Shown here: positions 21,293 to 42,789 of the stretch, in pieces | Numbering within the stretch: position 1 is the stretch's first letter | Layout of the letters: each line of letters starts with the position of its first letter | From: Actinomycetes bacterium | GTDB taxonomy: Bacteria > Actinomycetota > Acidimicrobiia > Acidimicrobiales > RAAP-2 | Direction: 5' to 3' | DNA: 64,000 bases | Assembly: GCA_021801235.1 (NCBI GenBank) | Contig: JAJYYG010000045.1 | Location: 1 to 64,000 of the forward strand | Notes under the pieces: generated by a model | What the model was told of the DNA's origin: nothing | Databases searched by the model: none | The model's input: only the letters and a program-made list of their open reading frames with translations | Made by a program: the position numbers and the translations under genes

Positions 21293-21329
21293 CTGTACCG
21301 ATGTTCGATAATACCGAACGTCGGTACAG
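21293..21329. promoter_or_regulatory. 15-bp inverted-repeat operator of the AbiE-like operon
   Basis: ctgtaccgatgttcg (21293-21307) pairs with cgaacgtcggtacag (21315-21329) across a seven-base AT-rich spacer, with one mismatch. It lies 19 bases upstream of the antitoxin ATG and probably overlaps its promoter. Confidence 0.65.
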
Positions 21330-21361
21330 GCCCCATCGGTCGTGGCTCAGCCAGCAACCGC

Positions 21362-21657
21362 CTCCTCGCTCTCGAAGCCGTTCAGGGATCACCGCGTCGA
21401 GGGACGTCGACTGGAAGTACTGGAGGGAATGCAGATGGAGGTCGTCGGGGAGCTTCGATCCGAGCCGCACTTTCAAGAAGGAGCGGCCGAGCGTGTCGGG
21501 GTACGGAGGCAGCTACCCGTCCAGCGCGGCCGAGAACACGAATCCTTCGTCGGGAACGGTGGCATTCCCGAAGGCAGCGAGATCCTCCGGTTCCGCACGG
21601 ACCGTCCGGAGGGCCGCGATGGTCCCGTGTGTCAACACCGGCTGAAACTTGACCCCC
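21362..21657 (-). pseudogene. Tyrosine recombinase (phage integrase) C-terminal relic
   Basis: The leftward frame reads PDEGFVFSAALDG, then an in-frame TAG at 21513-21515, then RSFLKVRLGSKLPDDLHLHS and LQYFQSTSLDAVIPERL. This is the C-terminal catalytic part of a tyrosine integrase, but the box-II motif HxLRH has become HSLQY, losing the catalytic Arg and His, and the domain stops before the active tyrosine. The 5' part is cut off at about 21657, next to a possible insertion-sequence end. It is not functional, but marks the island as once mobile. Confidence 0.6.
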
Positions 21658-21678
21658 CTGCCGGGATCACCGACTCGT

Positions 21679-21702
21679 CTTCCGCAGGTCGCCTGACGGC
21701 TT
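21679..21702 (+). repeat. Left terminal inverted repeat of the insertion sequence
   Basis: The 24-bp sequence beginning cttccgcaggtcgcctgacg is the exact reverse complement of 23838-23861; its last base is part of the transposase stop codon. Confidence 0.85.
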
Positions 21703-23444: not shown

Positions 23445-23487
23445 CCAGGGAGGTGGATCCCCTGGCAAGCTGGAAGGGGAGGTCGAG

Positions 23488-23826
23488 ATGGCGAGACCGA
23501 ACGCACGCGACGACGAACGGCGCTCGAAGATCACCGATCGGATCGGTGAGATCGGCTTCGCGCTCCCGGGCACGCTCATCGTGCGCCGGACGAGCTGCAA
23601 GAAGGAGGGCTGCCGCTGCATGGCGGACCCGCCCCAGCTCCACGGTCCCTACTTCCAGTGGACCCGAAAGGTGAACGGCAAGACGGTCACCCGCCTGTTG
23701 ACCCAGGAACAGATGGACCGCTACGGCCAATGGTTCGACAACGCCAAACGGGCACGGACGCTGCTCAGCGACCTCGAGGACCTCTCCCTCCGCATCGCGG
23801 AGCGTGCCGAAGGCTGGGGCGACTGA
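23488..23826 (+). CDS. DUF6788-like passenger protein
   Basis: A 112-residue basic protein with an ATG at 23488 preceded by GGGGAGG. The central RRTSCKKEGCRCMADPPQ includes three close cysteines, resembling a small zinc knuckle, followed by GPYFQWTRKVNGKTVTRLL. This matches the small DUF6788-type proteins often seen beside transposases. It is transcribed divergently from the transposase and lies wholly inside the terminal repeats. The role is unknown; DNA-end binding or control of transposition would be reasonable guesses. Confidence 0.65.
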   Translation: MARPNARDDERRSKITDRIGEIGFALPGTLIVRRTSCKKEGCRCMADPPQLHGPYFQWTRKVNGKTVTRLLTQEQMDRYGQWFDNAKRARTLLSDLEDLSLRIAERAEGWGD

Positions 23827-23837
23827 AGATCAGCAGG

Positions 23838-23861
23838 AAGCCGTCAGGCGACCTGCGGAAG
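23838..23861 (-). repeat. Right terminal inverted repeat of the insertion sequence
   Basis: A 24-bp sequence ending acctgcggaag; exact inverted copy of 21679-21702. Confidence 0.85.
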
Positions 23862-24142
23862 ATGAGACGGATCTGTCAGGAGAGCCAGTTTTCCAGCCGA
23901 GGCAAGCGGGCGTCGTGACGGGTCGGGCGCCACGAGGGCGCGTCCGAACACGCGGCCCGGCTTGACCGGTGGACCGCGCCGAGAAGTGTAGATATGCCGG
24001 TGATCCCGACAGGTGGTTGTCGTCGTTCCGGATCGGCATTCTGTGCGGGGTGGGATGCTCGCGTTCGCTGGATCGGGGCCGAGCCTGCTTGGCTCGTTGA
24101 GCGGCCGCTTTGTCGTTCTGGCACGCCTCTGACTCGTGGCGG
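23862..24142. other. Spacer between insertion sequence and vapBC
   Basis: About 280 bases with frames open on the minus strand but no recognisable protein. I see no RNA gene here. Confidence 0.45.
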
Positions 24143-24520
24143 TCAATAGGCCGGACGAAGGCCGGTGAACATCGGGAAATGACGAACATTCATCGTCATC
24201 AGCTCCGCGTCGAGCAGTAATGCAGTGGCGGCGATCAGGTAGTCTGCGTCGTCAATCCCGCCGTAGGCACGTCGGTGGTGCCGGGCAAGCTCGCCGGCGG
24301 CGCGGGAGATGCTTTCGTCGACCGGGACCCAGGTGACAACCGAGAAGAACTGCTCCAGAGCATCGATCTCCTTGGTTCGCACGCCAGCGAGGAGTTCGAA
24401 GCGGACAACTTCGCTCGAGATCACCGGCTCCTCTCCGTCGACGAGCCTCCGGAGGAGATTGACCGCTGGCTGGGCGCCACGCAGATGATCGATGGCAACG
24501 CTCGTGTCGACCAACTTCAT
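24143..24520 (-). CDS. vapC: VapC-type PIN-domain ribonuclease toxin
   Basis: A 125-residue PIN-domain protein. The acidic active-site residues are visible: D5 in [13 protein letters not shown] in [12 protein letters not shown] in [12 protein letters not shown] and the final acidic or polar position near NVRHF. VapC toxins cleave tRNA or rRNA and are neutralised by the VapB partner encoded just upstream. The ATG overlaps the antitoxin stop by four bases (ATGA), indicating coupled translation. The length is average for the family, and the gene appears intact. Confidence 0.88.
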
Positions 24521-25317: not shown

Positions 25318-25394
25318 TGGTGGGGCTAGCAAGAATCGAACTTGCGACCTCAGCATTATCAGTGCTGCGCTCTAACCGACTGAGCTATAGCCCC
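25318..25394 (-). tRNA. tRNA-Ile (GAT anticodon)
   Basis: Leftward reading gives GGGGCTATAGCTCAGTCGG, a normal D arm, the anticodon loop CTGATAA (GAT at 25358-25360), a GGTCGC variable stem and the TTCGATTC T-loop. The acceptor stem GGGGCTA/TAGCCCC is perfect, followed by discriminator A and an encoded CCA (25318-25320). Confidence 0.95.
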
Positions 25395-25641: not shown

Positions 25642-26811
25642 TCACTCCCTGCTCAGGATCAAGCCGCTGGTCGGCACGCCGGTCCCCGCCGTCACGAGCA
25701 CGTGCGCGACATCCGCGACCTGGTTGACCGAGGAGCCCCGGACCTGCCGGACCGCCTCGGTGATCCCGTTCATCCCGTGGATGTAGGCCTCCCCCAGGAG
25801 CCCCCCGTTGGTGTTGATCGGCAGGCGACCCCCGAGGGACAGGTTCTCGACCGTCGCGAAGTGCCGCGCCTCGCCCCGGCCGCAGAACCCGAGCTCCTCG
25901 AGCTGCATGAGCACGAACGGCGTGAAGTGGTCGTAGAGGAAGGCGGTCGAGATGTCCGCCGGCGCCAGCCCCGACATCTTCCACAACCGGTCCCCCACCA
26001 CGCCCATCTCCGGCAGTCCGAGCAGGTCGTCCCGGTAGTAGCTCGTCATCATCCCGCTGTCGAAGGTGGCACCCTGGGCGGCCGCGGTCACCACGGCCGG
26101 CTTCTGGCGGAGGTCCCGGGCCCGCTCGACCGAGGTGACGACCAGGGCCACCCCGCCGTCGGACTCCTGGCAGCAGTCGAGCAGCCGCAGCACCGGCTCC
26201 ACCACCCACCGCGACGCCTGGTGGTCCCCGATGGTGATCGGCCGTTCGTAGAACCAGGCGTCGGGGTTCGTCGCCGCGTGCTTGCGGTCGACCACGGCGA
26301 TCGCCCCGAAGTCCTCGTTGGTGACGCCGTAGACGTCCATGTAGCGGCGGGCGTGGAGAGCCACCCAGGAGGCCGGCGTCAGCAGCCCCCACGGCGCGTA
26401 CCACGACAGGAAGGGAGGCATCCCGCCGGTCATCGAGCCGGCGAAGTTGCCGAAGCGCGATCCGGACCGCTCGTTGAAGGCCCGGTAGCAGACGACCACT
26501 CCGGCCACCCCGGTGGCTACCGCCATCGCCGCCTGGAGCACGACTGCCGCCGCCGCCCCACCCCCGTAGGGGACGCGGGAGAACAACGAAAGCTCGTCGA
26601 TGCCCAGGTTGCGCCCGACCTCCATCTCCTCGCTCGAGTCGAGCGTGAAGGTGACGAGCCCGTCCACCTCGGCCGGCGCCAGTCCCGCGTCGTCCAGCGC
26701 GGCCCGCACCGCCTCGCAGGCGAGCTGGAGCTCGCTGCGTCCGGATGCCTTCGAGAACTCGGTCTGGCCGACGCCTGCGATGGCGGCCCGGCCACCCAGC
26801 GTCCCGCTCAC
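25642..26811 (-). CDS. Thiolase-fold lipid-transfer protein, Ltp2/SCP-x-like retro-aldolase
   Basis: A 389-residue thiolase-like protein lacking the catalytic cysteines of true thiolases. In actinobacterial steroid degradation, Ltp2 with the DUF35 part of ChsH2 cleaves a beta-hydroxy-acyl-CoA side chain by retro-aldol reaction. Two tyrosines, Y293 in FLYDHF and Y343 in EAYIHG, are spaced as I recall for the pair needed for catalysis in Ltp2. The GTG start overlaps the stop of the MaoC gene (GTGA). It is the last gene of a five-gene leftward operon: monooxygenase, MaoC, DUF35, MaoC, aldolase. The order of the last four matches chsH2-chsH1-ltp2 of mycobacteria. The substrate may be a sterol or another branched side chain. 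Confidence 0.75.
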   Translation of the reverse strand: MSGTLGGRAAIAGVGQTEFSKASGRSELQLACEAVRAALDDAGLAPAEVDGLVTFTLDSSEEMEVGRNLGIDELSLFSRVPYGGGAAAAVVLQAAMAVATGVAGVVVCYRAFNERSGSRFGNFAGSMTGGMPPFLSWYAPWGLLTPASWVALHARRYMDVYGVTNEDFGAIAVVDRKHAATNPDAWFYERPITIGDHQASRWVVEPVLRLLDCCQESDGGVALVVTSVERARDLRQKPAVVTAAAQGATFDSGMMTSYYRDDLLGLPEMGVVGDRLWKMSGLAPADISTAFLYDHFTPFVLMQLEELGFCGRGEARHFATVENLSLGGRLPINTNGGLLGEAYIHGMNGITEAVRQVRGSSVNQVADVAHVLVTAGTGVPTSGLILSRE

Positions 26812-27257
26812 GACCGGTCGCCGGCCCGCGGGAGGCGGACGTCGGCGGTCCCGGTCACGTGGTCACCGAGGTCACAGACCGCCCGGAAGGTCACCTCGAC
26901 GACCCCCTCGTCCCCTTCCTCCCGCAGGCCGCTGACCTCACCGGCGTAGGTGAGCGTGTGGCCCGGGAACGTGGGCACGCCGAGCCTGATGGCGAGCCGG
27001 GTCACCATGGCGTCGGGCCCCGCCCAGTCGGTCAGGAACCGGCTGCAGTAGCCGGTGTCCGAGAGGATGTTCATGAAGATGTCGGGCGCGCCCTGGGCGT
27101 TGGCGAACGCCCGGTCGTGATGGGCGGGCATGAAGTCGCGGCTCGCGATCGCCCCGGCCACGATGCGCGTCGCCGTCACGTCGAGGACGAGCGGGGGCAG
27201 CGCGTCCCCCACCGCGAGCGAGTCGAATGCCAGCGTCTCGGGGGCGCCGGCACTCAC
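26808..27257 (-). CDS. MaoC-like hotdog protein (ChsH1-like)
   Basis: A 149-residue single-hotdog hydratase. The typical catalytic motif is SRDFMPAHHDRAFANAQG, with D and H in the usual order, followed by DIFMNILSDTGYCSRFL. In the ChsH1-ChsH2 complex, ChsH1 provides one hotdog of an enoyl-CoA hydratase. Here it overlaps both neighbours by four bases (GTGA at each junction), so stoichiometric translation is likely. Its position just before the aldolase equals that of chsH1 before ltp2. Confidence 0.72.
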   Translation of the reverse strand: MSAGAPETLAFDSLAVGDALPPLVLDVTATRIVAGAIASRDFMPAHHDRAFANAQGAPDIFMNILSDTGYCSRFLTDWAGPDAMVTRLAIRLGVPTFPGHTLTYAGEVSGLREEGDEGVVEVTFRAVCDLGDHVTGTADVRLPRAGDRS

Positions 27258-27658
27258 CGGTCCACCTCCGGGGTGAACTGGGGCAGGACCACCCCGTTGT
27301 CGAACGTCTCGAACGTCACGTGCACCGCCATGCCCATCCGCACCTCCCCGGGGCCAACCCCGACGATGTTGGTCACCATCCTGGTCCCCTCCTCCAGCTC
27401 CACGACCGCCACGACGTAGGGGTACTCCATAAAGGGCAGCTCGGGGTGGGCGGGCATCACGAAGCTGAACACGGTGCCCCGGCCCGACGCCTCCACCGCC
27501 TTCCATTCGAGTGACCGGCACCACGGGCACATCGGCCGCGGGGGATGGCGGAACCGGCCACAGGCGGCACAGCGTTGGAGGAGGAGCCACCCCTCCGCCA
27601 CCCCTTCCCAGAAGAAGGCGGTGTCCGGGGTGACCGTGGGAGCCAGTCGGGTGCTCAC
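27254..27658 (-). CDS. DUF35 OB-fold protein with zinc ribbon (ChsH2 C-terminal-like)
   Basis: A 134-residue stand-alone DUF35 protein. The N-terminal part has the zinc ribbon CAACGRFRHPPRPMCPWC, with four cysteines, followed by an OB-fold (GTVFSFVMP, YVVAVVELEEGTRMVTNIVG). DUF35 domains serve as acyl-CoA binding partners for thiolase-like aldolases. In mycobacteria this unit is fused to a MaoC domain in ChsH2; here it is a separate gene, overlapping the MaoC gene upstream and the ChsH1-like gene downstream by four bases each. Confidence 0.78.
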   Translation of the reverse strand: MSTRLAPTVTPDTAFFWEGVAEGWLLLQRCAACGRFRHPPRPMCPWCRSLEWKAVEASGRGTVFSFVMPAHPELPFMEYPYVVAVVELEEGTRMVTNIVGVGPGEVRMGMAVHVTFETFDNGVVLPQFTPEVDR

Positions 27659-28209
27659 GAACCGGTCCGCGGGTCGAATTTCAGGATCCGGAACCGTTGC
27701 CGGCCGACGACCTCGCCGCCCGCGTCGCGATAGACGGTCAACCACGTCACGAAGCGCCCGCGCCCCATCCTCGTGACCTTCTCCTCCGAGACCGACTCGA
27801 ACGTCGTGGACGCCGAGACCAGGTCGCCGGGCCGAAGGTAGCGGACGATCTCGAACTCCGAGTTGGTGGCGAGGGTGGCCGTGTAACCCGCCTGGTCGAA
27901 CACGGCGAGCGGGGACCGTCCCTGGGCGGGCCGGGGTGCCCCGCCCCGCTCGGCGATCCCGGTGATCACCGGCGTCGCCATGGTCCACGTCTGGAGCATG
28001 AGCGGCGGGGCCACGATGCCGCCGAACCGGGAGGCGGCGGCCGCACCGCCGTCGGTGTAGACGGGGTTCGCGTCCTCGAAGGCCGCCGCCCAGTGCCGGA
28101 TCATCGGCTCGTTCACCGGATCGGGTGCCACCGCCTCCTCGTGGGAGCTGACGTTCGTCCCGACCAGCGCGGCGAACCTCGCCTCGAGGTCGTCTTCGGT
28201 GGTGGACAC
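27655..28209 (-). CDS. MaoC-like hotdog protein (ChsH2 N-terminal-like)
   Basis: A 184-residue hotdog protein. The start is a GTG at 28209, followed by ARFAALVGTNVSSHEEAV, DPVNEPMIRHWAAAFEDANP and VYTDGGAA, typical for the N-terminal hotdog of ChsH2 and FAS1-N-like hydratases. It would pair with the ChsH1-like protein to form a hydratase for an unsaturated acyl-CoA. Together with the following DUF35 gene it looks like a split ChsH2. It begins six bases after the monooxygenase stop. Confidence 0.72.
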   Translation of the reverse strand: MSTTEDDLEARFAALVGTNVSSHEEAVAPDPVNEPMIRHWAAAFEDANPVYTDGGAAAASRFGGIVAPPLMLQTWTMATPVITGIAERGGAPRPAQGRSPLAVFDQAGYTATLATNSEFEIVRYLRPGDLVSASTTFESVSEEKVTRMGRGRFVTWLTVYRDAGGEVVGRQRFRILKFDPRTGS

Positions 28210-28214
28210 CGCTG

Positions 28215-29717
28215 CTACTCCCCGCCGGCGGTACCGGCCGCCACCGCCGCACCCGGGCACGCCGCGGACTCGAAGTCGCGCGGGTCGATGACCGCGGTGC
28301 GACGCGCGAACTCGCTCATCGACATCGGCCACTGGGTCACGATGCGACCGGTCCGGGACCGGTAATAGCCGGTGCAGTCGGCCTGCCAGACGGCGATCGA
28401 GGCGATGGCCCGCTGGACCTCGTCGTTGTAGGCGTCGCACACCTCCGGGCGGGGGTCCACCCAGGCGATGCCCTCCCGCTCCATCCGCTCCAGGTGGGCG
28501 AGGATGTGGGCGACCTGGGCCTCGATCATGGTAAGGATGCTGCCGTTGTTGGTGTTCGGTCCGTAGAGCATGAACAGGTTGGGGAAGCCGGGGGTGGTGA
28601 TCCCGAGGTAGGCCTGCGCCCCGTCGGCCCACACGTCGCGGATGCGCCGGCCGCCGCGCCCCACCACGTCGATCACCGAGACGAAGCGGGTGGTGGTGAA
28701 CCCGGTCGCCAGGACGATCGTGTCGACCCGCCGCTCGATGCCGTCGACGGTGAGGACTCCCGTCGGGGTGATCCGTTCGATCGTCTCGGTGACCAGCTCC
28801 AGGTTGGGCCGGTTGAACGCCGCGAAGTAGGAGTTCGAGAAGAGCGGCCGCTTGCAGCCGAAGGGGTGCGTGGGGCGGAGGCGGGCCCGGACGTCGGGAT
28901 CCTCGACCACGTCGATGGCGGCCAGCCCGATTGCCTCCCGCTCCGCCAGCGCGCCCGGATCCGAGAAGGTCATGCCCGCGTCCATGTGCCGGTAGATCTC
29001 GTCCCGGATCGCCTGGATGATCTCAGGATGCTGGCGGAAACGCTCGAGCTCCTCTTGCGAGTAGGGCGTGTCCACCTTGGGCAGGACCCAGTTGGCCGTG
29101 CGCTGGAAGAGATGGACCTGGCCCGCGGCCGCTGTGATCTCGGGCACCAGCTGTACGGCGCTCGCCGCCGACCCGATCACCGCGATCCGCTCGCCGGTGA
29201 TGTCGTGGCCGGCATCCCAGCGCGACGAGTGGACCGTCGCCCCCTCGAACGTCCCGATGCCCTCGATGTCGGGCGGGACCGGCTCCCTGAACATCCCCAC
29301 CGCGCTCACGAGCACGTCGGCGACGACCGCTCCGCCGGTGGAGTCGATCCGCCAGGTGGCGGTCTCCTCGTCCCAGGTGGCCCCGGTCACCTCGGTGCCG
29401 AATCGGCAGTAGGGGAGGATGCCGTACCGGTCGGCGATCGCCTCGAAGTAGGCGAGGATCTCCGGCTGGGGTGGATACGGCCGGCTCCAGTCCACCTTGG
29501 GCGCCCAGCTGAACGAGTAGAGCGCGGCCTGCACGTCGCATGCGCAGCCCGGGTAGGTGTTGATGCGCCAGGTGCCCCCGGGCCCGTCGCACCGCTCGAG
29601 GACGACGAAGTCGTCGATCCCCGCGTCGAGCAGCTCCTTGGCCACGCAGAGCCCCCCGGGGCCCGCCCCGATCACGGCGACCCGCACGCGCCGTCCCTGT
29701 CCGTGATCCTGGCTCAC
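28215..29717 (-). CDS. Baeyer-Villiger monooxygenase, cyclohexanone-type
   Basis: A 500-residue FAD/NADPH flavoprotein. The FAD motif IGAGPGGLCVAKEL is near the N-terminus, the Baeyer-Villiger fingerprint FEGATVHSSRWD at about residues 157-168, and the second Rossmann motif IGSAASAVQLVPE follows. FTTTRFVSV and GPNTNNGSILTMIE are as in cyclohexanone-type enzymes. It is the first gene of the leftward operon and would convert a ketone to an ester or lactone. The GTG at 29717 is preferred over an upstream TTG because GGAGG lies eight bases ahead. The promoter contains the shared TCAA-N6-TTGA element and faces the double-MarR gene. Confidence 0.85.
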   Translation of the reverse strand: MSQDHGQGRRVRVAVIGAGPGGLCVAKELLDAGIDDFVVLERCDGPGGTWRINTYPGCACDVQAALYSFSWAPKVDWSRPYPPQPEILAYFEAIADRYGILPYCRFGTEVTGATWDEETATWRIDSTGGAVVADVLVSAVGMFREPVPPDIEGIGTFEGATVHSSRWDAGHDITGERIAVIGSAASAVQLVPEITAAAGQVHLFQRTANWVLPKVDTPYSQEELERFRQHPEIIQAIRDEIYRHMDAGMTFSDPGALAEREAIGLAAIDVVEDPDVRARLRPTHPFGCKRPLFSNSYFAAFNRPNLELVTETIERITPTGVLTVDGIERRVDTIVLATGFTTTRFVSVIDVVGRGGRRIRDVWADGAQAYLGITTPGFPNLFMLYGPNTNNGSILTMIEAQVAHILAHLERMEREGIAWVDPRPEVCDAYNDEVQRAIASIAVWQADCTGYYRSRTGRIVTQWPMSMSEFARRTAVIDPRDFESAACPGAAVAAGTAGGE

Positions 29718-29804
29718 CGTCACCTCCAACCGCTCGGGGGACCGTCATCGCACGACGCGCCCACCGGCGTACCCCGGCTCGACGCGGGCTCGTTTCCGGT
29801 CCTA

Positions 29805-29868
29805 CTACTACAGCGGTCTTGCTCATCATGTCAAGCAGGGTTGAGTAACGTGCCTCCCGCGGTACACT
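29805..29868. promoter_or_regulatory. Bidirectional promoter with TCAA-N6-TTGA operator (copy 1)
   Basis: tcaagcagggttga at 29831-29844 lies between two back-to-back promoters. Leftward: TTGACA (complement of 29829-29834), 18 bases, TAGTAG (complement of 29805-29810). Rightward: TTGAGT at 29841-29846, 16 bases, TACACT at 29863-29868, six bases before the MarR ATG. Nearly the same arrangement recurs at 33164-33228. Confidence 0.65.
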
Positions 29869-29874
29869 GCAGGG

Positions 29875-30975
29875 ATGCCAGCGCGCGGCCCGAACGTGTC
29901 AGCGCCCGCACCTGGTGGCCGGGCTGCACCGGCAACCGTCGTCCTGCTCGCAGCCCTCGCCCGCGACGTGCAGTTGCGACTCGGCGAGCACCTCGCCGAG
30001 TCGGGCGACCACGGGCTCCGCCGCAGCTTCGCCCCCCTCCTCCAGCTGATCGCCGACGGTGAGCTGGCGAGCGGTCGCATCGCCACCGAGCTCGGGGTCA
30101 GCCCCCAGGCGGCCAGCCGGGCAACGGTCACCCTCGAGGCGCTCGGCTACGTCGCCCGGCGGCCCAACCCGGACGACCGGCGCTCCCGCCTCGTCGGCCT
30201 CACCGACCGAGGGAGGCGCCTTCTCGAGGGGGCCGCCCGGACGCTCGCCGAGTGCGAGGCGTCCTACGCCGGCCTGGTGGGCGAGGACGCCGTCTCCCAC
30301 CTGCGGGCCGATCTCGAGGACCTGCGGGAGGGGTTCGAGCTGCAGGCGGAGCCCGGGACAGGGCTCCACCGGACGGGCACCCGCTCGATCGGGGTGGTCA
30401 TCCTCCTCAGCCTCGACGCCAAGGCGCAGGTCCTGCGGACCGTCACCGGGTGCGGCCACGAAGCCCTGCGCTCCTCGCTCGACGAGCTGCTCGTCACCAT
30501 CGGGTCCGGGTCGGCGCGCGTCAGCGACCTGGCCCGCAACCAGCAGGTGAGCCGTCAGGCGGTGAGCATGGCCGTCCAGGAGCTCGAATCCCTCGGCTAC
30601 GTCCGTCGCCGACCCGACGAGACCGACGGCCGCGGCATCGTCCTCAGCCTGACCGAACGGGGTGCCGCTCTCGCCGCCGCCATCGCCGCGGCCGAGCGCC
30701 GACTCGAGGACCGCTACCGCGACATCCTGGGCGTCCCTCGCCACGAGCGTCTCCGGGAGGTGCTCGGAGACCTGGTCGCGGCACTCGGCGTCCCTGCAGG
30801 CAGTCCGGGCCCACTGCCCGGCGGGCGAACCGGGTGGACGGCGACGGACGCGCGGGCACCGCTCGAGGACCTGGCCCGGCACCTGCGCGACGAGCTCGGT
30901 GAGCGGAACGCGGCGAGGCTCGCCCTGCTGCTCGCCGGCGGGACGACCCGCGACGGTGCCGGCCGGCGCCGTTGA
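29875..30975 (+). CDS. Double MarR-domain transcriptional regulator
   Basis: A 366-residue protein with two complete MarR winged-helix domains in one chain. The first recognition region is GRIATELGVSPQAASRATVT with wing RRPNPDDRRSRLVGLTDRG (about residues 65-105); the second is SDLARNQQVSRQAVSMAVQE with wing RRRPDETDGRGIVLSLTERG (about residues 216-258). MarR proteins normally dimerise, so the fusion could act as a pseudo-dimer. It is divergent from the monooxygenase operon and its -35 box is part of the shared operator, so it probably controls itself, that operon and the dehydrogenase genes. The ATG follows a -10 box by six bases, indicating a leaderless mRNA. Confidence 0.82.
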   Translation: MPARGPNVSAPAPGGRAAPATVVLLAALARDVQLRLGEHLAESGDHGLRRSFAPLLQLIADGELASGRIATELGVSPQAASRATVTLEALGYVARRPNPDDRRSRLVGLTDRGRRLLEGAARTLAECEASYAGLVGEDAVSHLRADLEDLREGFELQAEPGTGLHRTGTRSIGVVILLSLDAKAQVLRTVTGCGHEALRSSLDELLVTIGSGSARVSDLARNQQVSRQAVSMAVQELESLGYVRRRPDETDGRGIVLSLTERGAALAAAIAAAERRLEDRYRDILGVPRHERLREVLGDLVAALGVPAGSPGPLPGGRTGWTATDARAPLEDLARHLRDELGERNAARLALLLAGGTTRDGAGRRR

Positions 30976-31007
30976 CACCCCCCGGAGGGGCCACCGATCG
31001 GCACCTG

Positions 31008-31937
31008 TCAGCGGGGGACCATCGAGCGCAACGCGGCCACCGCCTCGTCCACACCCTCCCCGGCCTGTCCGACCAACCCGCCCAGCGAGACGAACCCGTG
31101 GATCATGCCGGCATGGCGTGACACCCGCGCCTCGACCCCGGCCTCCACCAGCTTCGCCGCGTAGGCCTCCCCCTCGTCACGCAGCGGGTCGTACTCCGCG
31201 GTGACGACCAGCGCGGGCGGCAGTCCACCCAGGTCCCGCGCGAGCAACGGAGAGGCGTCGGGGTCGGCAGGGTCGGATCCACCGAGGTAGTGCTCCTTGA
31301 ACCACGCCATCATGTCGATGGTGAGCAGGTAGCCCTCTGCGTTCTCGTCATGGGAGGGGTGGGGGCCGGCGAAGTCCGTCACCGGATAGAAGAGCAGCTG
31401 GAACGCGATCGGGGGACCTCCAGCATCGCGGAGCCGGCGGGCGGTGACGGCGGCCAGGTTCCCCCCGGCGCTGTCCCCGCCCACGGCGATGCGGGCCGGG
31501 TCGCCGCCGAGCTCGGCGCCATGCTCCCGGACCCAGGTGGTTGCCGCTTCGGCGTCCTGAACGGCGGCGGGGAACGGATGCTCGGGCGCGAGCCGGTAGT
31601 CGACGCTCACCACGACGGCGGGCACTGCGGTGGCGAGCTGCTGGCAGAGTCCGTCGTGGGTCGCGATGCCCCCGATCACGAACCCGCCACCGTGGAAGTA
31701 GACGAGCGTCGGGATCGGTCCCCCGGCCGCGGGCCGGTAGATCCGTACGGGGATCGCGCCGCCGGGGCCGTCGATCATCCGGTCTTCGGTGTCCGCCGGC
31801 TGGGCCGGTCGCCCGTCGAGCGCGGCCATCGCCGCATAGCTCTCCCGGGCCGCCTGAGGTGTCTGTGCGGTCATCGGAGGGCCGTCGGCGGCAGCGATCT
31901 GCTCGAGGAGCTGGGCGATCTGGGGGTCGAGGGGCAT
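31008..31937 (-). CDS. Hormone-sensitive-lipase-type alpha/beta hydrolase (esterase)
   Basis: A 309-residue carboxylesterase. The oxyanion-hole motif HGGGFVIG and the nucleophile elbow GGDSAGGN are intact; the acid is in LRDEGEAY and the catalytic His in GMIHGF. HSL-type enzymes hydrolyse short- to medium-chain esters. The ATG at 31937 has GGAAGGA upstream. It is 80 bases downstream of the alcohol dehydrogenase gene in the same direction, so the two may be cotranscribed. In context it could hydrolyse the ester made by the Baeyer-Villiger enzyme, giving alcohol and acid. Confidence 0.88.
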   Translation of the reverse strand: MPLDPQIAQLLEQIAAADGPPMTAQTPQAARESYAAMAALDGRPAQPADTEDRMIDGPGGAIPVRIYRPAAGGPIPTLVYFHGGGFVIGGIATHDGLCQQLATAVPAVVVSVDYRLAPEHPFPAAVQDAEAATTWVREHGAELGGDPARIAVGGDSAGGNLAAVTARRLRDAGGPPIAFQLLFYPVTDFAGPHPSHDENAEGYLLTIDMMAWFKEHYLGGSDPADPDASPLLARDLGGLPPALVVTAEYDPLRDEGEAYAAKLVEAGVEARVSRHAGMIHGFVSLGGLVGQAGEGVDEAVAALRSMVPR

Positions 31938-32017
31938 GTGGGTTCCTTCCGTCGTGGGTGGTGTCACTCTGATGGCTCCCGATCTTGACTGGTCCTGCGG
32001 GGTCGGGTAGGTCCGCC

Positions 32018-33130
32018 TCAGTCGAAGCTCAGGACGCCCCGGATGTTGCGGCCTTCGAGCATGTCCGCATACCCCTGGTTGACCGCCTCGAGTGGGTAGG
32101 TCCGGGTCACCATCGAGTCGAGGTCGAGCTGGCCCTGGTCGTAGAGGCGCAGCAGGTGGGGGATGTCCTCGCGGAAGTTCGCGGAGCCGAAGATCGTGCC
32201 CACCAGCTGCTTGCCGGAGAGGGCCAAGGAGGCCATCGAGATGGTGACCGCCGTCTCGGCGGCAGGGTGGATGTTCGTCACCACCACACGGCCGCGTTTG
32301 GCCGTGAGCTCGAGGATCTGCCCCACAAGACGGCCGTCGCCCACCCCCATGGTGCAGATGACCTTGTCGGCGCCCTTGCCCCAGGTGACGTCCAGGATCT
32401 GCGGGAGGGCCTCCGCGATCGACGCCGCCGTGTGGGTGGCCCCGAAGGTCCTGGCCATGTCGCGCTTGAAGTCCACCGGGTCCACCGCGAAGATCCGCTC
32501 GGCGCCGGCCAGCCGGGCCCCCTGCACTGCGGCCGACCCGAGGCCGCCGACACCCACGACCGCGACGTCGTCACCCGGTCGGACTGCGGCGGCGTAGACG
32601 GCCGACCCCCACCCGGTGGTCACCCCGCAGCCGACGAGGCAGGCCTTCTCCAACGGATAGTGGTCGAGGATCCTGACGCAGGAGGCCTGGTTCACGACCG
32701 TGTGGTGGGCGAAGGTCCCGAGGCAGGTCATGGTCGAAAGATCCCGCCCGTCCAAGGCGTGATGGCGGGAAGTGCCGTCGGTCCGGAGCCCGGTGAGGAG
32801 CTGTGCCCCGACGTCGCAGAGGCTGGAACGGCCCCGCGCGCACGACGGGCAGGCGCCGCAGGCGGCCACGAACCCGAAGACCACGTGGTCACCCGGGGAG
32901 AGGTCCGGCACGCCCTCTCCGACCTGCTCGACGACGCCGGCGCCCTCGTGGCCACCGATCACGGGCAGCAGGGCCCCCAGATCGCCGTTGCGCACGTGCT
33001 CGTCGCTGTGGCACATGCCCGAGGCGGCCAGGCGGACGAGCACCTCACCCCGCCCCGGGGGATCGAGCTCGACCTCCTCGATGCTCCACGGTTCGCCCGT
33101 CCGCCAGGCCACGGCCGCCTGCGTCTTCAT
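32018..33130 (-). CDS. Zinc-dependent alcohol dehydrogenase, NDMA-dependent type
   Basis: A 370-residue medium-chain dehydrogenase. Catalytic-zinc ligands are in GMCHSDEH and GGHEGAGVV, with another Cys in LVGCGVTTGWGS; the structural-zinc loop is CGACPSCARGRSSLC. The NAD-binding motif is VVGVGGLGSAAVQG. The overall pattern is that of actinobacterial NDMA-dependent alcohol dehydrogenases, which often keep the cofactor tightly bound and are linked to mycofactocin; no mycofactocin gene is seen here. The ATG at 33130 has GGAGG nearby. Its promoter shares the operator with the divergent aldehyde dehydrogenase gene. Confidence 0.87.
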   Translation of the reverse strand: MKTQAAVAWRTGEPWSIEEVELDPPGRGEVLVRLAASGMCHSDEHVRNGDLGALLPVIGGHEGAGVVEQVGEGVPDLSPGDHVVFGFVAACGACPSCARGRSSLCDVGAQLLTGLRTDGTSRHHALDGRDLSTMTCLGTFAHHTVVNQASCVRILDHYPLEKACLVGCGVTTGWGSAVYAAAVRPGDDVAVVGVGGLGSAAVQGARLAGAERIFAVDPVDFKRDMARTFGATHTAASIAEALPQILDVTWGKGADKVICTMGVGDGRLVGQILELTAKRGRVVVTNIHPAAETAVTISMASLALSGKQLVGTIFGSANFREDIPHLLRLYDQGQLDLDSMVTRTYPLEAVNQGYADMLEGRNIRGVLSFD

Positions 33131-33163
33131 CGGTCCTCCCACCTCGGTGCCGGGGTTCCCCGT

Positions 33164-33228
33164 TTCCTATTCCTCGGTTCACATCATTGTCAAGTGGGGT
33201 TGAGTATTGCGGTCCCGGGGCGTACGCT
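33164..33228. promoter_or_regulatory. Bidirectional promoter with TCAA-N6-TTGA operator (copy 2)
   Basis: tcaagtggggttga at 33190-33203 matches copy 1 at 12 of 14 bases, with further identity outside. Leftward: TTGACA (complement of 33188-33193), 18 bases, TAGGAA (complement of 33164-33169). Rightward: TTGAGT (33200-33205), 17 bases, TACGCT (33223-33228). It serves the alcohol dehydrogenase and aldehyde dehydrogenase genes. Confidence 0.65.
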
Positions 33229-33338
33229 CTCGGCACGGCGCCGACCGGTCGTGGTGGCGCCCCGCTCGACGCCGTGCGTCCCGGGGAGGTGCCCCGTCCC
33301 GGCGTCGGCGAACGCAGCTGGTTCGGGAGGGGGGACGC

Positions 33339-34829
33339 ATGACGACGTCGGAGCGAGCGGCGGCACCCTCCGGAGGAAGGGCTGCCGGGGCAGGCGACCT
33401 GCTGGACGACTACGGCCTCTACGTCGACGGTCGGTGGGTGGCTCCCGAGCGGGGCAGGTTCGACGACTGCTGCCCGACCACGGGGGAGGTGGTGGCCCGC
33501 GTGCCCGACGCCGACGTCGGCCAGGTGGCCGCGGCGATCGGCGTGGCCCGGAGCACCGCCGATGGCGGGGTGTGGTCCGGAGCGGATCCGGCCTTCCGTG
33601 CCGCCTGCCTGACCCAGCTCTCCGACGCCCTCCGACGCCACCGCGGGGAGCTGGTTGCCCTCTCCCGTGTGGAGTGGGGTAACACCGCCAGCGGCGATCT
33701 CCTCCAGATCGATGCCGGCACCCACCTCGCAGCGGGCACCGCCCCGCTCGCCGCGCTCCCCACCGAGGAGACCGAGGCGGGCCCCGCCGGCCCGGTCGTG
33801 GTGCGCCACGCTCCCGTCGGCGTGGTGTCGGTGATCACCCCCTGGAACTTCCCCCACACCATCAACCTGCTCAAGGTCGCCCCGGCGCTCGCCGCGGGGA
33901 ACACGGTGGTGCTCAAGCCCTCCCCGCTCGCACCGATGGCGGCGCTCGCGCTGGCCCACCTGGTGGACACCGAGACCGACATCCCCGCCGGGGTGCTCAA
34001 CGTGGTCCCCACCTCCAGCCAGGAGGCGAGCGAGGCCCTGGTGCTCGATCCCCGGGTCGACATGGTGAGCTTCACCGGCTCGACGGCGACGGGTCGGGTG
34101 ATCATGGCGATGGCCGGCAGGACGCTCAAGAGGCTACTGCTCGAGCTCGGCGGAAAATCGGCCTGCATCCTCCTCGACGGCGTCGATCTCGACGCGTTGC
34201 TCGGTCGCCTCGCCTTCGAGTGCTGCACCATGCACGCAGGTCAGGCGTGCATCCTCCAGAGCCGGCTCCTCGTTCCCGTGCGACTCCACGACGAGGTGGC
34301 CGAGCGCCTGGGCGCGTTGGTGGCGGCCACCCGGGTCGGCGACCCGGTCGAGGGAGCCGAGATGGGACCCCTCATCAGCGCCGCGCAGCGGTCCCGCGTG
34401 GAGGCCCTGGTCGCGACGGCCCTCACCGAGGGGGCCCGGGTGGTGACCGGGGGCCGGCGTCCCGGCGGGCTCGACCACGGCCACTTCTACGAGCCGACCG
34501 TGCTGACCGGGGTGGCGCCCTCTTCGACGATCGCCCAGTCCGAGGTGTTCGGACCGGTCCTGTCGATCCTCGCCTACCGGGACGAGGACGAGGCGGTGGC
34601 GATCGCCAACGACTCCGCCTACGGCCTCTCCGGAGCGGTCCACGGGCCCGATCCGGAGCGGGCCACCGCGGTCGCCCGCCGGTTGCGGACCGGCCAGGTC
34701 GCGGTGAACGGGGCGACGCCGGCGGGCGCCCCCTTCGGCGGGTTCAAGCAGAGCGGCCTCGGCCGGGAGGGCGGCCTGTCCGGCCTACGCCAGTACACCG
34801 AGACACAAGCCATCGGGGTCCCCCGCTGA
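33339..34829 (+). CDS. NAD(P)-dependent aldehyde dehydrogenase
   Basis: A 496-residue aldehyde dehydrogenase. The N-terminal cofactor domain shows VITPWNFPHTIN and KPSPLAPMAAL; the general-base Glu is in LLELGGKSACI and the nucleophile Cys in MHAGQACILQSRL. The C-terminal VFGPVLSILAY and FGGFKQSGLGREGG are as usual. It oxidises an aldehyde to a carboxylic acid, the logical step after the divergent alcohol dehydrogenase. A GGGAGGGG ribosome-binding site precedes the ATG. The stop overlaps the start of the next gene by one base (TGATG), so the acyl-CoA ligase is cotranslated. Confidence 0.92.
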   Translation: MTTSERAAAPSGGRAAGAGDLLDDYGLYVDGRWVAPERGRFDDCCPTTGEVVARVPDADVGQVAAAIGVARSTADGGVWSGADPAFRAACLTQLSDALRRHRGELVALSRVEWGNTASGDLLQIDAGTHLAAGTAPLAALPTEETEAGPAGPVVVRHAPVGVVSVITPWNFPHTINLLKVAPALAAGNTVVLKPSPLAPMAALALAHLVDTETDIPAGVLNVVPTSSQEASEALVLDPRVDMVSFTGSTATGRVIMAMAGRTLKRLLLELGGKSACILLDGVDLDALLGRLAFECCTMHAGQACILQSRLLVPVRLHDEVAERLGALVAATRVGDPVEGAEMGPLISAAQRSRVEALVATALTEGARVVTGGRRPGGLDHGHFYEPTVLTGVAPSSTIAQSEVFGPVLSILAYRDEDEAVAIANDSAYGLSGAVHGPDPERATAVARRLRTGQVAVNGATPAGAPFGGFKQSGLGREGGLSGLRQYTETQAIGVPR

Positions 34830-36568
34830 TGGAGCCTCCCGCCGCCTCGGCGCAGTCGCCGTCCGGGGCAGACGCCGATGGCACCGGGGGCGTGGACGCG
34901 TCCGACGCGGTGCCGGGGACGGTGGCGGCCCTGCTGCTCGCCCGGGCCGACGACGACGCCGTCGGGCTCCTGGCCGGGGACCGGACGTACTCGTGGCGGG
35001 AGGTGGTGGCTGCCAGCCTCCGAAGGGCTGCTGCTGCGCTGGCCATGCGGCCGCAGGACCCCGCCGCGCCGTTCCACATCGGGGTCCTGCTCCCCAATAC
35101 CCCGGACTACCTGTTCTGGTTGGGCGGAGCGGCCCTGGCCGGTGCCACGGTCGTCGGGATCAACCCGACCCGCCGGGGGAACGAGTTGGCCCGCGACCTC
35201 GCGTTCACCAACTGCCACGCCCTCGTGACCGACGCCGGTGGGGCGGACTTGCTCGCCGGGCTCGACACCGGCGTCCCACCGGAGCGCATCGTCCGGGTCG
35301 ACAGTGGTGGGGCGCTGCCCGGATCGGGCATGCCGCCGGTGAGCCCGTCACCCCGCCGCACGGACCTGCTGCTCCTTCTGTTCACCTCCGGCACCACGAA
35401 CGCCCCGAAGGCGGTCCGGTGCACCCAGGGCCGGCTGGCCGACATCGCGGAGCGGGCATCGGCCGCCTACGGCTTCGCCCGATCCGACGTCTGCTACTGC
35501 CCCATGCCGCTGTTCCACGGCAACGCCGTCATGGCCCTGTGGGCCCCCGCCCTGGCGGTCGGGGCCTCGGTGGCCCTCACCCCCAGGTTCAGCGCCAGCC
35601 GGTTCATCCACGACGTCCGCCGCTACCAGGCCACCCGCTTCACCTACGTGGGCAGGGCTCTCGCCTACGTGCTCGCCACCCCGGAGCGCCCCGACGACGC
35701 GGACACGCCACTGGCGGTCGGCTTCGGCACCGAGGCCTCGGCGCGCGACCGGGCGGAGTTCGAGCGCCGCTTCGGTTGCACGCTCGTCGAAGGGTACGGC
35801 TCCTCCGAGGGCGGAGCCGCCATCACCCGGACCGCCGACACGCCGCCGGGAGCGCTCGGTCGAACCGCCGACGACGTGGTCGTGGTCGACCCCGACACCG
35901 GTGTCGAGAAGACCCGGGCCCGGCTCGGCGCCGACGGGCGGTTGGAGAACCCGGAGGAGGCGATCGGCGAGCTGGTCAACCGCTCGGGCGGCGGCCGGTT
36001 CGAGGGCTACTGGCGCAACCCGGGAGCCGATGCCGAACGGGTGCGCGACGGCGCCTACTTCACGGGCGACCTCGGCTACATCGACAAGGACGGCTTCGTC
36101 TGGTTCGCCGGGCGCAAGGACGACTGGCTGCGGGTCGACTCCGAGAACTTCTCGGCCGCCCCGGTCGAGCGCATCCTCGAACGCCACCCGGACGTCGTAG
36201 CCGCCGCCGTCTACGCGGTCCCCGACCCCCGCACCGGCGACCAGGTGATGGCTGCGGTCGAGCTCCGGCCGGGCACCGGTGCCGCGGTCTTCACCGACAG
36301 CCTGGTTCCGTTCCTGGACGACCAGCGGGATCTGGGCACCAAATGGGCGCCCCGGTTCGTGCGGATCGTCGACGCGCTCCCTCTCACCGCGACCGGGAAG
36401 ATCACCAAGCAGCCCCTGCGGCGGGAGGCCTGGCGGTGCAAGGACCCGGTCGTCTGGTGTCCCCCCGGTGAGGCCCGGTACCGGCCGGTGACCCCGGGCG
36501 ACGTCGCCGGGATCGAGGCGGCCTTCGCCGGCTCCGGCCGGGAGGCGCTGGCTCCGGCCGGGCCGTAA
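34829..36568 (+). CDS. FadD17-like acyl-CoA synthetase
   Basis: A 579-residue AMP-forming acyl-CoA ligase. The phosphate-binding loop LLLLFTSGTTNAPKAV, the VEGYGSSEGGAAITR segment, the YFTGDLGYIDKDGFVWFAGR core and the C-terminal lysine region (LTATGKITKQ) are present. The pattern MPLFHGNAVMALW and GVLLPNTPDYLFW closely matches mycobacterial FadD17, whose gene is regulated together with cholesterol genes. It would activate a carboxylic acid, such as the dehydrogenase product, to a CoA thioester. An ATG at 34829 overlaps the stop of the dehydrogenase gene. Substrate class is inferred from context. Confidence 0.85.
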   Translation: MEPPAASAQSPSGADADGTGGVDASDAVPGTVAALLLARADDDAVGLLAGDRTYSWREVVAASLRRAAAALAMRPQDPAAPFHIGVLLPNTPDYLFWLGGAALAGATVVGINPTRRGNELARDLAFTNCHALVTDAGGADLLAGLDTGVPPERIVRVDSGGALPGSGMPPVSPSPRRTDLLLLLFTSGTTNAPKAVRCTQGRLADIAERASAAYGFARSDVCYCPMPLFHGNAVMALWAPALAVGASVALTPRFSASRFIHDVRRYQATRFTYVGRALAYVLATPERPDDADTPLAVGFGTEASARDRAEFERRFGCTLVEGYGSSEGGAAITRTADTPPGALGRTADDVVVVDPDTGVEKTRARLGADGRLENPEEAIGELVNRSGGGRFEGYWRNPGADAERVRDGAYFTGDLGYIDKDGFVWFAGRKDDWLRVDSENFSAAPVERILERHPDVVAAAVYAVPDPRTGDQVMAAVELRPGTGAAVFTDSLVPFLDDQRDLGTKWAPRFVRIVDALPLTATGKITKQPLRREAWRCKDPVVWCPPGEARYRPVTPGDVAGIEAAFAGSGREALAPAGP

Positions 36569-36660: not shown

Positions 36661-39144
36661 TCACTCCGCGGCGGAGGACTCCCCGGCCACGGGTGCCACC
36701 GCCGCCACCGCATCGCCGCCGTCGAGGTTCATCACCCGCACACCGGTGGCGTCACGCCCCTGCGAGGCGATCTCCCGGACCGGCATCCGGATGACCACCC
36801 CGCCGGTGGAGACCAGCAGGAGCTCGTCGTCCAGGGCGGCCATGAACGCGGCTACCACCTTCCCGCGCCTCGCCGTCAACTTGATCCCGCGCACGCCCTG
36901 GCCGCCGCGCGCCTGGCGGTTGAACCGCTCGAGCTTGGTCCGCTTGCCGAACCCGGCATCGGTCACCAGCAGGATGTCGGCGTCGTCCCGGGCCACGTCG
37001 CACGAGACGACCCGGTCCTCGGTCTTGAGACGGACCCCCCGCACCCCCGCCGCATCGCGGCCCATGGCGCGCACGTCGCCCTCCGAGAACCGGATGGTCA
37101 TCCCGGTCTGGGTCACGAGGAACAGGTCGTCGTCTCCGGTGGTCTCCACCACCCGGACCAGCTCGTCCCCCTCCCGCAGATTGATGGCGATGAACCCCTC
37201 GCGCCGGGACTTGTCGTACTCGCTGAAGGGAGTCTTCTTCACCTGACCCAGCCGGGTGGCGAAGACCAGGAAGTGATCGGCCGAGAAGTCGCGTGTGCCG
37301 ATCACCGCCTGGATCGTCTCGTCCGGCGAGAGGGGGAGCAGGTTCACGATGGCGGTCCCCCTCGCCGTCCGCTCCTTCATCGGGATCTCGAGGGCCCGCA
37401 GACGGAACACCCGGCCCCGGTTCGAGAACAACAGCAGGTGGGCGTGCGACGAGGTGTGCACCACGTCGCTGATCAGGTCCTCTTCCTTGAGCTTCGCTCC
37501 CTGCACGCCCCTGCCTCCGCGTCCCTGGGTGCGGAACGAGTCGGCGGAGACCGCCTTGATGTACCCGGCGCGTGACATGGTCACCACCAGCTCCTCGTCG
37601 TCCACCAGGTCCTCGACGTTCATATCGCCGGGATCGTGCGTGATCCGGGACCGCCGCGGGCTGGCGAACTTCTCCCGGATCTCCGCGAGCTCGGAGGCGA
37701 TGACCCCCCGGAGCTTGACCGGATCCGCGAGAATCGACTCCAGCTCGGCGATCTCCTCGAGCAGCTTCGCCATCTCCTCTTCGAGGTTGGCGCGGCCGAG
37801 CCTGGTGAGACGGGACAGCGTCATGTCGAGGATGTGGTTCGCCTGCTCCTCCGAGAACTCGAAGGGGGCGTTGCGGAGCGCCTCCAACGCGGCCGGTCGG
37901 TCGTCCGAGCCCCGGATGGCGGCGATCACCGCGTCGAGCATGTCGATCGCCTTCAGCAGGCCCTCGACGACATGGGCCCGGGCCCGGGCCTTGGCCAACA
38001 GGAATTCCGAGCGCCGGGTGACCACCTCGACCTGGTGGGCGATGTAGTGGGTGAGCATCTGCGACAGGTTGAGCGTCCGGGGCACCCCGTCGACCAGCGC
38101 CACCGCGTTGACGCTGAACGACGTCTGCAACGGGGTCTGCTTGAACAGGTTGTTGAGCACCACGTTGGCGTTGGCATCCCGCTTCAGACGGATGACCAGT
38201 CGGGTGGCTCCTCCCGCCGAGTCGTCCTGGAGCTCGGCGATGCCGTCGAGATCGCCGGCCCGGACCAGGTCCTCGATCTTCTTGGACAGCACCGCGATCG
38301 AGGTCTGGTACGGCATCTCCGAGACGACGATCCGGGTGGCACCGTCGCGTCCCTCCACGATCTCCGCCACGGCCCGCAGCTTGATGGAGCCGCGCCCGGT
38401 CCGGAAGGCGTCGAGAATTCCCTGGCGCCCGAGGATGAGTGCCCCCGTCGGGAAGTCCGGACCTTTGACGAACTCCATCAGGTCGTCCGGCGTCGCCTCC
38501 GGGTGGTGGAGGAGGTGGGTGGTCGCGTCGATGACCTCCCCGAGGTTGTGCGGGGCGATGTTGGTGGCCATTCCGACGGCGATGCCCTGGGAGCCGTTCA
38601 CCAGGATGTTGGGGAAGCGCGACGGGAGCACCGTGGGCTCCTCCGACGTCGCGTCGTAGTTGGGCTGGAAGTCGACGGTGTCCTGGTCGATGCCGGCCAT
38701 GAGCTCGAGCGCCAGCGCGTCGAGCCGGCACTCCGTGTACCGCATGGCCGCCGGTCCCTCGTCGGGGCCGGTCCCTCCGAAGTTCCCGTGCCCGTCGATC
38801 AACGGGTGGCGCATCGAGAACTCCTGCACCATCCGGGCCAGCGCCTCGTAGATCGACGAGTCGCCGTGGGGGTGGTAGGAACCCATGACGTCGCCGACCA
38901 CCTTGGCGCACTTGGTGTGAGGCCGATCCGGTCGCAGTCCCTGGTCGAACATCGAGTAGAGGATGCGTCGGTGCACCGGCTTGAGACCGTCGCGGACGTC
39001 GGGAAGGGCCCGGGAGACGATCACCGACATGGAGTACTCGAGGAACGAGCGCTCCATCTCCTCTTGGATCTCGATGGGCTCGACGAAGCCCGACGTCGTC
39101 CCACCGTCGGTGGGGTCCGTGCGGTCGCTGTCCCGTGCTGCCAT
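36661..39144 (-). CDS. gyrA: DNA gyrase subunit A
   Basis: An 827-residue gyrase A subunit, which breaks and rejoins DNA. The catalytic tyrosine is Y136 in AAMRYTECRL. The quinolone-determining region reads HPHGDSSIYEALARM, with serine at the Escherichia coli Ser83 position and glutamate at Asp87. The loop after GNFG (GTGPDEGPAA) is about one residue longer than in reference proteins. The C-terminal beta-pinwheel includes several GRGGRGVQG/ARGGQGVRG-like blades, including the GyrA box. The ATG at 39144 has AAGGAAG upstream. It lies 107 bases after gyrB in the same direction. Confidence 0.97.
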   Translation of the reverse strand: MAARDSDRTDPTDGGTTSGFVEPIEIQEEMERSFLEYSMSVIVSRALPDVRDGLKPVHRRILYSMFDQGLRPDRPHTKCAKVVGDVMGSYHPHGDSSIYEALARMVQEFSMRHPLIDGHGNFGGTGPDEGPAAMRYTECRLDALALELMAGIDQDTVDFQPNYDATSEEPTVLPSRFPNILVNGSQGIAVGMATNIAPHNLGEVIDATTHLLHHPEATPDDLMEFVKGPDFPTGALILGRQGILDAFRTGRGSIKLRAVAEIVEGRDGATRIVVSEMPYQTSIAVLSKKIEDLVRAGDLDGIAELQDDSAGGATRLVIRLKRDANANVVLNNLFKQTPLQTSFSVNAVALVDGVPRTLNLSQMLTHYIAHQVEVVTRRSEFLLAKARARAHVVEGLLKAIDMLDAVIAAIRGSDDRPAALEALRNAPFEFSEEQANHILDMTLSRLTRLGRANLEEEMAKLLEEIAELESILADPVKLRGVIASELAEIREKFASPRRSRITHDPGDMNVEDLVDDEELVVTMSRAGYIKAVSADSFRTQGRGGRGVQGAKLKEEDLISDVVHTSSHAHLLLFSNRGRVFRLRALEIPMKERTARGTAIVNLLPLSPDETIQAVIGTRDFSADHFLVFATRLGQVKKTPFSEYDKSRREGFIAINLREGDELVRVVETTGDDDLFLVTQTGMTIRFSEGDVRAMGRDAAGVRGVRLKTEDRVVSCDVARDDADILLVTDAGFGKRTKLERFNRQARGGQGVRGIKLTARRGKVVAAFMAALDDELLLVSTGGVVIRMPVREIASQGRDATGVRVMNLDGGDAVAAVAPVAGESSAAE

Positions 39145-39251
39145 TGCTTCTTCCTTGCCGTCGGCGGGCCGTCCCGCGGTTCATGGGTGTCGGGGCTGGG
39201 ATCCGGGAGGTGGGGTCGGCCCGGCCGGATCCGGGCCCCGTCGCGGTCCTC

Positions 39252-42789
<3,538 letters not shown>

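Follow-up and report, generated by a model that had tools for sequence, protein, structure and literature searches.

A ten-gene island of an Acidimicrobiales genome joins an Ltp2-type aldolase module to a Baeyer-Villiger monooxygenase in a predicted double-MarR regulon

In the 64-kb stretch of DNA analysed here (the window; bases 1-64000 of contig C35, 132 kb, from a draft genome of 2.79 Mb that is 88% complete) we found an island of ten genes at 25642-36568, which probably encodes a single co-regulated catabolic pathway. The island appears to consist of the known ChsH/Ltp2 machinery for side-chain cleavage, joined to a Baeyer-Villiger monooxygenase (BVMO), an esterase and dehydrogenases. Our best explanation is that a protein with two MarR domains, the double-MarR regulator, controls four transcription units by way of two divergent regions with one predicted palindromic operator each, and that a beta-branched, sterol- or terpenoid-like substrate would be cut first by the aldolase and then by the BVMO. 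To this explanation as a whole, comprising regulon, substrate type and order of steps, we assign a probability of about 0.5. The features of the island are as follows.

25642..26811, minus strand: Ltp2-type thiolase-fold aldolase of the 'Ltp2-b' clade (NF005892, PDB 6OK1, tree and motif)
26808..27257, minus strand: ChsH1-like MaoC (R)-hydratase subunit (PDB 4W78/4WNB, ChsH1-ChsH2 complex, E about 2e-30)
27254..27658, minus strand: stand-alone DUF35 protein, zf-ChsH2 zinc ribbon plus OB_ChsH2_C OB fold (PF12172, PF01796)
27655..28209, minus strand: FAS1/MaoC domain protein (PF13452; PDB 4W78/4WNB, E about 9e-29)
28215..29729, minus strand: type I BVMO, start codon uncertain (solved-structure matches, fingerprints)
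29831..29844, no strand: predicted operator TCAAGCAGGGTTGA, between the BVMO and double-MarR genes
29875..30975, plus strand: double-MarR regulator, 366 amino acids, two MarR domains in one chain (PF12802, two stretches)
31008..31967, minus strand: hormone-sensitive-lipase-type esterase or lactonase, LipP1 family (NF058653, Abhydrolase_3)
32018..33130, minus strand: zinc alcohol dehydrogenase (ADH), N,N-dimethyl-4-nitrosoaniline-dependent (mycofactocin-type) (TIGR03989)
33190..33203, no strand: predicted operator TCAAGTGGGGTTGA, between the ADH and aldehyde dehydrogenase genes
33339..34829, plus strand: aldehyde dehydrogenase (ALDH) (PF00171; subfamily from tree)
34829..36568, plus strand: CasI-like acyl-CoA ligase (NF052587; start overlaps the ALDH stop)
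Unit 1, minus strand: BVMO-MaoC-DUF35-ChsH1-Ltp2, three junctions with 4-base GTGA-type overlaps
Unit 2, plus strand: double MarR, single gene
Unit 3, minus strand: ADH-esterase
Unit 4, plus strand: ALDH-ligase, ALDH stop and ligase start overlapping by 1 base

The ten coding open reading frames each had a domain match, and their third-position GC was high where the gene caller resolved them. Thus the ten adjacent genes listed by an initial annotation of this DNA were recovered with the families it had named, except for the subfamily of the ligase. The four transcription units were read from start sites and junctions, and the two divergent promoter regions lie at 29730-29874 and 33131-33338. 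A chance arrangement was rejected because of the GTGA overlaps, the ALDH/ligase overlap and an operator-like site common to both divergent regions.

The initial annotation had also placed the genes in one regulon under the double-MarR protein. This reading is now supported and strengthened by a concrete predicted operator, which is found in both divergent regions and tracks the regulator in other genomes. The palindrome TCAAN6TTGA was derived by comparing the BVMO/double-MarR intergenic regions of three lineages; an inverted-repeat search limited to this region found nothing because the arms of the palindrome comprise only four bases. In the 64-kb window it occurs twice (chance 0.05), once per divergent region, and both sites sit in an 18-mer pattern that is matched with zero and one mismatch. 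The whole 2.79 Mb genome contains three copies, two of them in the island. The distant relative G484 has two genomic copies, both within its double-MarR locus, and G048 has three, one of them at double-MarR/BVMO. When 40 BVMO loci were compared, the motif was present upstream of the BVMO gene in exactly the four with an adjoining double-MarR gene, at about 93-115 nt from the aligned BVMO start. At the two window sites, TTGAC- or TTGAG-like hexamers are found in each arm, and a single bound protein could block both directions.

The double-MarR protein is rare, with one clear orthologue among 60 relatives and a second in a class sample of 395 genomes. Its single-sequence AlphaFold model was too poor to use (predicted local distance difference test score 43.6); the order of helices and strands shows two repeats. 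In G460 a relative of the regulator (L319 7811-8569) is shortened and lacks the second DNA-binding domain, and an operator-like site is still situated upstream of the BVMO gene. The third copy of the palindrome in the window's own genome (G000:C113:2911-2924) precedes a gene for a Fur-like regulator, with a rubrerythrin-like gene behind it, and for this reason is probably unrelated and due to chance.

The Ltp2-like aldolase claimed initially was confirmed by its score of 655.9 bits against the curated Ltp2 model PRK07855/NF005892 (cut-off 469) and by its catalytic residues, but it belongs to a sister clade of the steroid Ltp2. It aligns over its full length with the solved Ltp2 of Thermomonospora curvata (PDB 6OK1, E 8.5e-171). 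The catalytic residues of that enzyme are Tyr294 and Tyr344 (PMC12329534), and their equivalents, Y293DHF and Y343, are intact. Aldolases of the Ltp2 type cleave a tertiary 3-hydroxyacyl-CoA to a short acyl-CoA and a ketone (PMC8399759). The ChsH1-like subunit retains the RDF....HHD motif. The stand-alone DUF35 protein matches chain B of PDB 6OK1, the ChsH2(DUF35) of the Ltp2 complex (E 1.2e-37), and by homology would be the counterpart of the C-terminal part of ChsH2; the FAS1/MaoC domain protein would correspond to the N-terminal part. Since the two genes lie in different reading frames with a GTGA overlap, ChsH2 is split here and is not a single MaoC-DUF35 protein.

The aldolase was compared with its best 80 relatives from a scan of named genomes, ranked by similarity to the window alignment; all frequencies given for aldolase loci refer to this sample and are not class-wide. 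Named relatives with a comparable aldolase block are metagenome-assembled genomes (MAGs) of Acidimicrobiia and other actinobacteria. A tree of 83 aldolases has one branch (support 100/100) that sets apart 41 rows, the window among them, which we call Ltp2-b. MaoC and DUF35 are separate genes in all 41, whereas on the other side, which holds a second copy from the same genome (contig C28), they are fused in 38 of 42. The window aldolase falls outside the clade of Ltp2 proteins from chs-type operons, and ten positions distinguish Ltp2-b from the canonical clade, including 335 and 338 near the catalytic Tyr343. The YDHF motif and the tyrosine are present in 80 of 81 compared aldolases, the remaining row being truncated. 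Ltp2-b is carried by many non-tuberculous mycobacteria (among them Mycobacterium colombiense, M. gastri, M. scrofulaceum and M. genavense) and by Nocardia vaccinii. A contig filed under a Klebsiella pneumoniae MAG (L189) also bears an Ltp2-b cluster related to the actinobacterial ones; this bin is probably mislabelled or contaminated. From tree and gene order, Ltp2-b appears to form a lineage sister to the steroid side-chain aldolase system, in which ChsH2 is split and an acyl-CoA dehydrogenase (ACAD) is often lacking.

Domain scans bore out the absence of an ACAD from the island that had been stated before: no heteromeric ACAD pair was found among the ten genes. Of the 41 Ltp2-b loci, 21 lack ACADs; among these are all ten rows of the window subclade, which is defined by a fork of moderate support (93/94). 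A ChsE-like ACAD pair is encoded elsewhere in the same genome, on C28, beside the second, canonical Ltp2 cluster. That cluster (L006, G000:C28, 880-7499) further comprises a fused ChsH2 and a divergent P450 gene, and its type is conserved across several Acidimicrobiales MAGs. Because the C28 cluster and those mycobacterial Ltp2-b clusters that have ACADs share the order ACADa-MaoC-DUF35-ACADb-ChsH1-Ltp2, the simpler reading is that the ACADs are ancestral and were lost. We therefore did not accept as shown that the missing ACAD means an unsaturated substrate; C28 could supply the enzyme.

The nearest solved structures to the BVMO are cyclohexanone monooxygenases and phenylacetone and steroid monooxygenase. 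Both fingerprints of the family are present, FxGxxxHxxxW[PD] as FEGATVHSSRWD at residue 161 and [AG]GxWxxxx[FY]P[GM]xxxD as GGTWRINTYPGCACD at residue 51. Of the dinucleotide motifs (GxGxx[GA]) the first reads GAGPGG and the second GSAASA, likewise in the relatives read. A second gene resembling flavin-containing monooxygenases and BVMOs lies at 2491-4743 of the window (plus strand), with 43% identity to the island BVMO over 400 residues. The esterase passed the LipP1 model NF058653 (397 bits, cut-off 350) and the ADH passed TIGR03989 (524 bits, cut-off 440); the mycofactocin maturase MftC is encoded in the genome (641 bits, cut-off 265). For the ligase the earlier FadD17 label was dropped, since the model of CasI, the steroid-22-oyl-CoA synthetase, scored higher (NF052587, 729 bits) than that of FadD17 (NF005897, 499 bits, cut-off 850). 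The ligase is closest to CasI and yet remains below that model's cut-off of 900; the FadD1 model gave 518 bits, also under its cut-off. CasI activates a steroid C3 side chain (PMC8399759).

Pairs and triples of the island genes that overlap one another were seen repeatedly in different families of the class. The BVMO gene adjoins a double-MarR gene in G048, G484 and G460. In G033 the order BVMO-MaoC-ChsH1 was found with ALDH, esterase and ADH genes nearby, the ALDH beside the BVMO; G009 likewise has ALDH beside BVMO. G484 carries the BVMO with a fused MaoC-ChsH1, and at L321 (7250-8260) such a fusion of 336 amino acids stands next to a BVMO, in the company of two amidohydrolases and a luciferase-like monooxygenase (LLM) oxidoreductase. 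A CasI-like ligase is next to MaoC-DUF35-ChsH1-Ltp2-b in G024 and G036, and in mycobacteria the ALDH takes this place. The ALDHs of the window, of G009 and G033 and of 28 Mycobacterium/Nocardia loci form one clade (Shimodaira-Hasegawa-like approximate likelihood ratio test 99); therefore this subfamily accompanies the BVMO in one set of lineages and the aldolase module in another. The aldolase module and the BVMO meet in G466, in the one-direction run BVMO2-cupin-ACADa-ACADb-MaoC-DUF35-ChsH1-Ltp2-b-ADH-BVMO; esterase, ALDH and ligase were not recognised in the 18 kb read around it. At L288 the BVMO orthologue comes after the aldolase and the ADH in a single run of genes.

The chemistry of the route that we propose is established for the enzyme families and is assigned here by homology. 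An alcohol would be oxidised to the aldehyde by the mycofactocin-type ADH and to the acid by the ALDH, and the CasI-like ligase would form the acyl-CoA. This would become a 2-enoyl-CoA by the action of an ACAD from elsewhere (e.g. from contig C28), unless the substrate is unsaturated already. The ChsH1/MaoC hydratase would then give a tertiary 3-hydroxyacyl-CoA, from which the Ltp2-b/DUF35 complex would release acetyl- or propionyl-CoA and a ketone by retro-aldol cleavage. The BVMO would oxidise the released ketone to an ester or lactone, the esterase would hydrolyse it, and the new alcohol would return to ADH and ALDH. We favour the aldolase before the BVMO because an Ltp2-type aldolase yields a ketone, and a ketone is the substrate of a BVMO; we hold this order tentatively, at slightly less than even odds.

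The same order could serve as a carboxylase-free route for beta-methyl-branched isoprenoids, e.g. geraniol-, farnesol- or phytol-derived acids, a version that we regard as decidedly unlikely. Here ADH, ALDH and ligase would lead to a 2-enoyl-CoA that is unsaturated already, so that no ACAD would be needed, and the Ltp2-b complex would hydrate it and release acetyl-CoA and a methyl ketone by retro-aldol cleavage. The BVMO and the esterase would shorten this ketone, and the resulting primary alcohol would enter the same enzymes once more. That Ltp2-b clusters repeatedly lack the ACAD pair agrees with this version.

Several points weigh against a single regulon with the aldolase acting first. The function of the predicted operator, the substrate and the order of steps are all deduced from sequence. 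A consensus scan gave no complete sigma-70-like promoter at either predicted operator. A D-ring ketone or another internal ketone would not yield a primary alcohol, which the ALDH requires. Elsewhere the BVMO is also found without the aldolase, beside amidohydrolase, LLM and CoA-transferase genes, and the co-occurrence of a close BVMO with a close MaoC (7 genomes observed, 1.6 expected), which itself speaks for a shared pathway, comes from a test that ignores phylogeny. Scattering of the genes in relatives, which the initial annotation had named as evidence against its regulon, was seen in part: the whole ten-gene set was present in none of the relatives examined and was found only here, but pairs and triples of it recur as described above.

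We considered three alternatives to the aldolase-first regulon. First, the BVMO could act at the beginning, as had been proposed initially: it would turn a ketone into an ester, which the esterase would split; the alcohol set free would be oxidised by ADH and ALDH and converted to its CoA thioester by the ligase, and after desaturation by an enzyme encoded elsewhere and hydration the aldolase would make the final cut. The gene families permit such an order. The esterase belongs to the Abhydrolase_3 family, and with cyclohexanone monooxygenases as the nearest solved structures the BVMO-hydrolase-ADH-ALDH part would resemble the cyclohexanone (chn) route. However, a plain methyl ketone would provide no tertiary beta-hydroxyacyl-CoA for the aldolase unless ring or chain were suitably branched. 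G466 pairs BVMO and aldolase, and the esterase, ALDH and ligase that would have to connect them were not recognised there; a run with ACADs, hydratase, aldolase, ADH and BVMO lacking these three fits the aldolase-first order better. The aldolase yields a ketone, and a BVMO acting behind the aldolase suits the layout of L288 no worse than the initial order, which was not upheld and which we consider rather unlikely.

Second, two converging steroid routes could share one regulon. C22 acids would be processed by ALDH, CasI-like ligase, hydratase and Ltp2-b, leaving a 17-ketosteroid and propionyl-CoA, and C21 20-ketosteroids would be turned into a 17-hydroxysteroid by BVMO and esterase. The activity of CasI mentioned above speaks for these routes, as does a BVMO that turns progesterone into testosterone acetate (PMC12239570). 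The relatives of Ltp2 and ChsH1/H2 are steroid enzymes, and the genome has the canonical ChsE-like/ChsH/Ltp2/P450 cluster on C28. The presence of this canonical copy can also be turned against a steroid role of the island; the ligase stays below the CasI cut-off, and the aldolase lies outside the canonical Ltp2 clade with its ten diagnostic positions, some beside the catalytic tyrosine. Full steroid degradation is weakened further because the genome gave zero matches to KshA_C and a best match of only 20.6 bits for an HsaC/BphC-type dioxygenase, negatives that are limited by its 88% completeness. On balance we judge the steroid routes unlikely.

Third, two or more independent blocks could have been assembled near the replication origin as unrelated neighbours; the full set is indeed not conserved as one block and its sub-blocks match the arrangements of different lineages, but the near-identical predicted operators in both promoter regions, the gene overlaps and the pairwise links recurring in other families make this very improbable.

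Cyclohexanone (chn) type pathways comprise a BVMO, a lactone hydrolase, an ADH and an ALDH. The island has the same four enzyme classes, a likeness by class and not by sequence, and its BVMO is nearest to solved cyclohexanone monooxygenases; in contrast to chn it adds a CoA ligase and the hydratase/retro-aldolase complex, and its ADH is mycofactocin-type. The actinobacterial system for comparison is the igr/chs operon for cholesterol and cholate (ChsE1-ChsE2-ChsH1-ChsH2-Ltp2; CasI and CasL-CasP in Rhodococcus jostii RHA1). The two systems share ChsH1, the N- and C-terminal halves of ChsH2, a CasI-like ligase and an Ltp2-type aldolase with YDHF/Tyr, whereas in the island ChsH2 is encoded by two genes, an ACAD pair is lacking, the aldolase belongs to a separate clade and the BVMO heads the operon. 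A stand-alone DUF35 beside a thiolase-fold aldolase is also found in the atf1-chsH4-chsE6-kstR3 operon of Mycolicibacterium neoaurum; there, however, the aldolase cuts C22-C23 in a Sal-type reaction, hydratase pair and BVMO are absent and the regulator is another one (PMC10398937). The progesterone cluster pdc of Caenibius tardaugens shares a type I BVMO that stands beside its own regulators and serves steroid side-chain removal, but has two monooxygenase genes (BVMO and LLM) and two regulators and is without hydratase, aldolase, ligase and double MarR (PMC12239570). No LLM gene was detected among the island genes by domain scans, and in the papers searched we came upon no account of a BVMO/Ltp2/double-MarR cluster. 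The island would thus combine in one predicted regulon two carbon-chain-cutting reactions that are usually met apart, and tie the Ltp2-b lineage to Baeyer-Villiger oxidation. With the specific predicted operator the regulon becomes testable, and by way of the regulon also the inducer. If it is true that the aldolase feeds the BVMO, branched chains would be shortened without carboxylation.

The island adjoins the replication origin region, between gyrA (36661-39144, minus strand) and a tRNA-Ile gene (25318-25394, minus strand). The minus-strand run at 36661-45766 comprises gyrA, gyrB, a gene in recF position, dnaN and dnaA. The tRNA-Ile gene was rejected as an attachment site of the island, as the search for a repeat of the tRNA within the window was negative. 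Past the tRNA, at 19402-24520, we observed genes for a PIN-domain protein, a DUF4277 transposase-like protein and an AbiEi/AbiEii-like toxin-antitoxin pair, a content that suggests a mobile-element hot spot.

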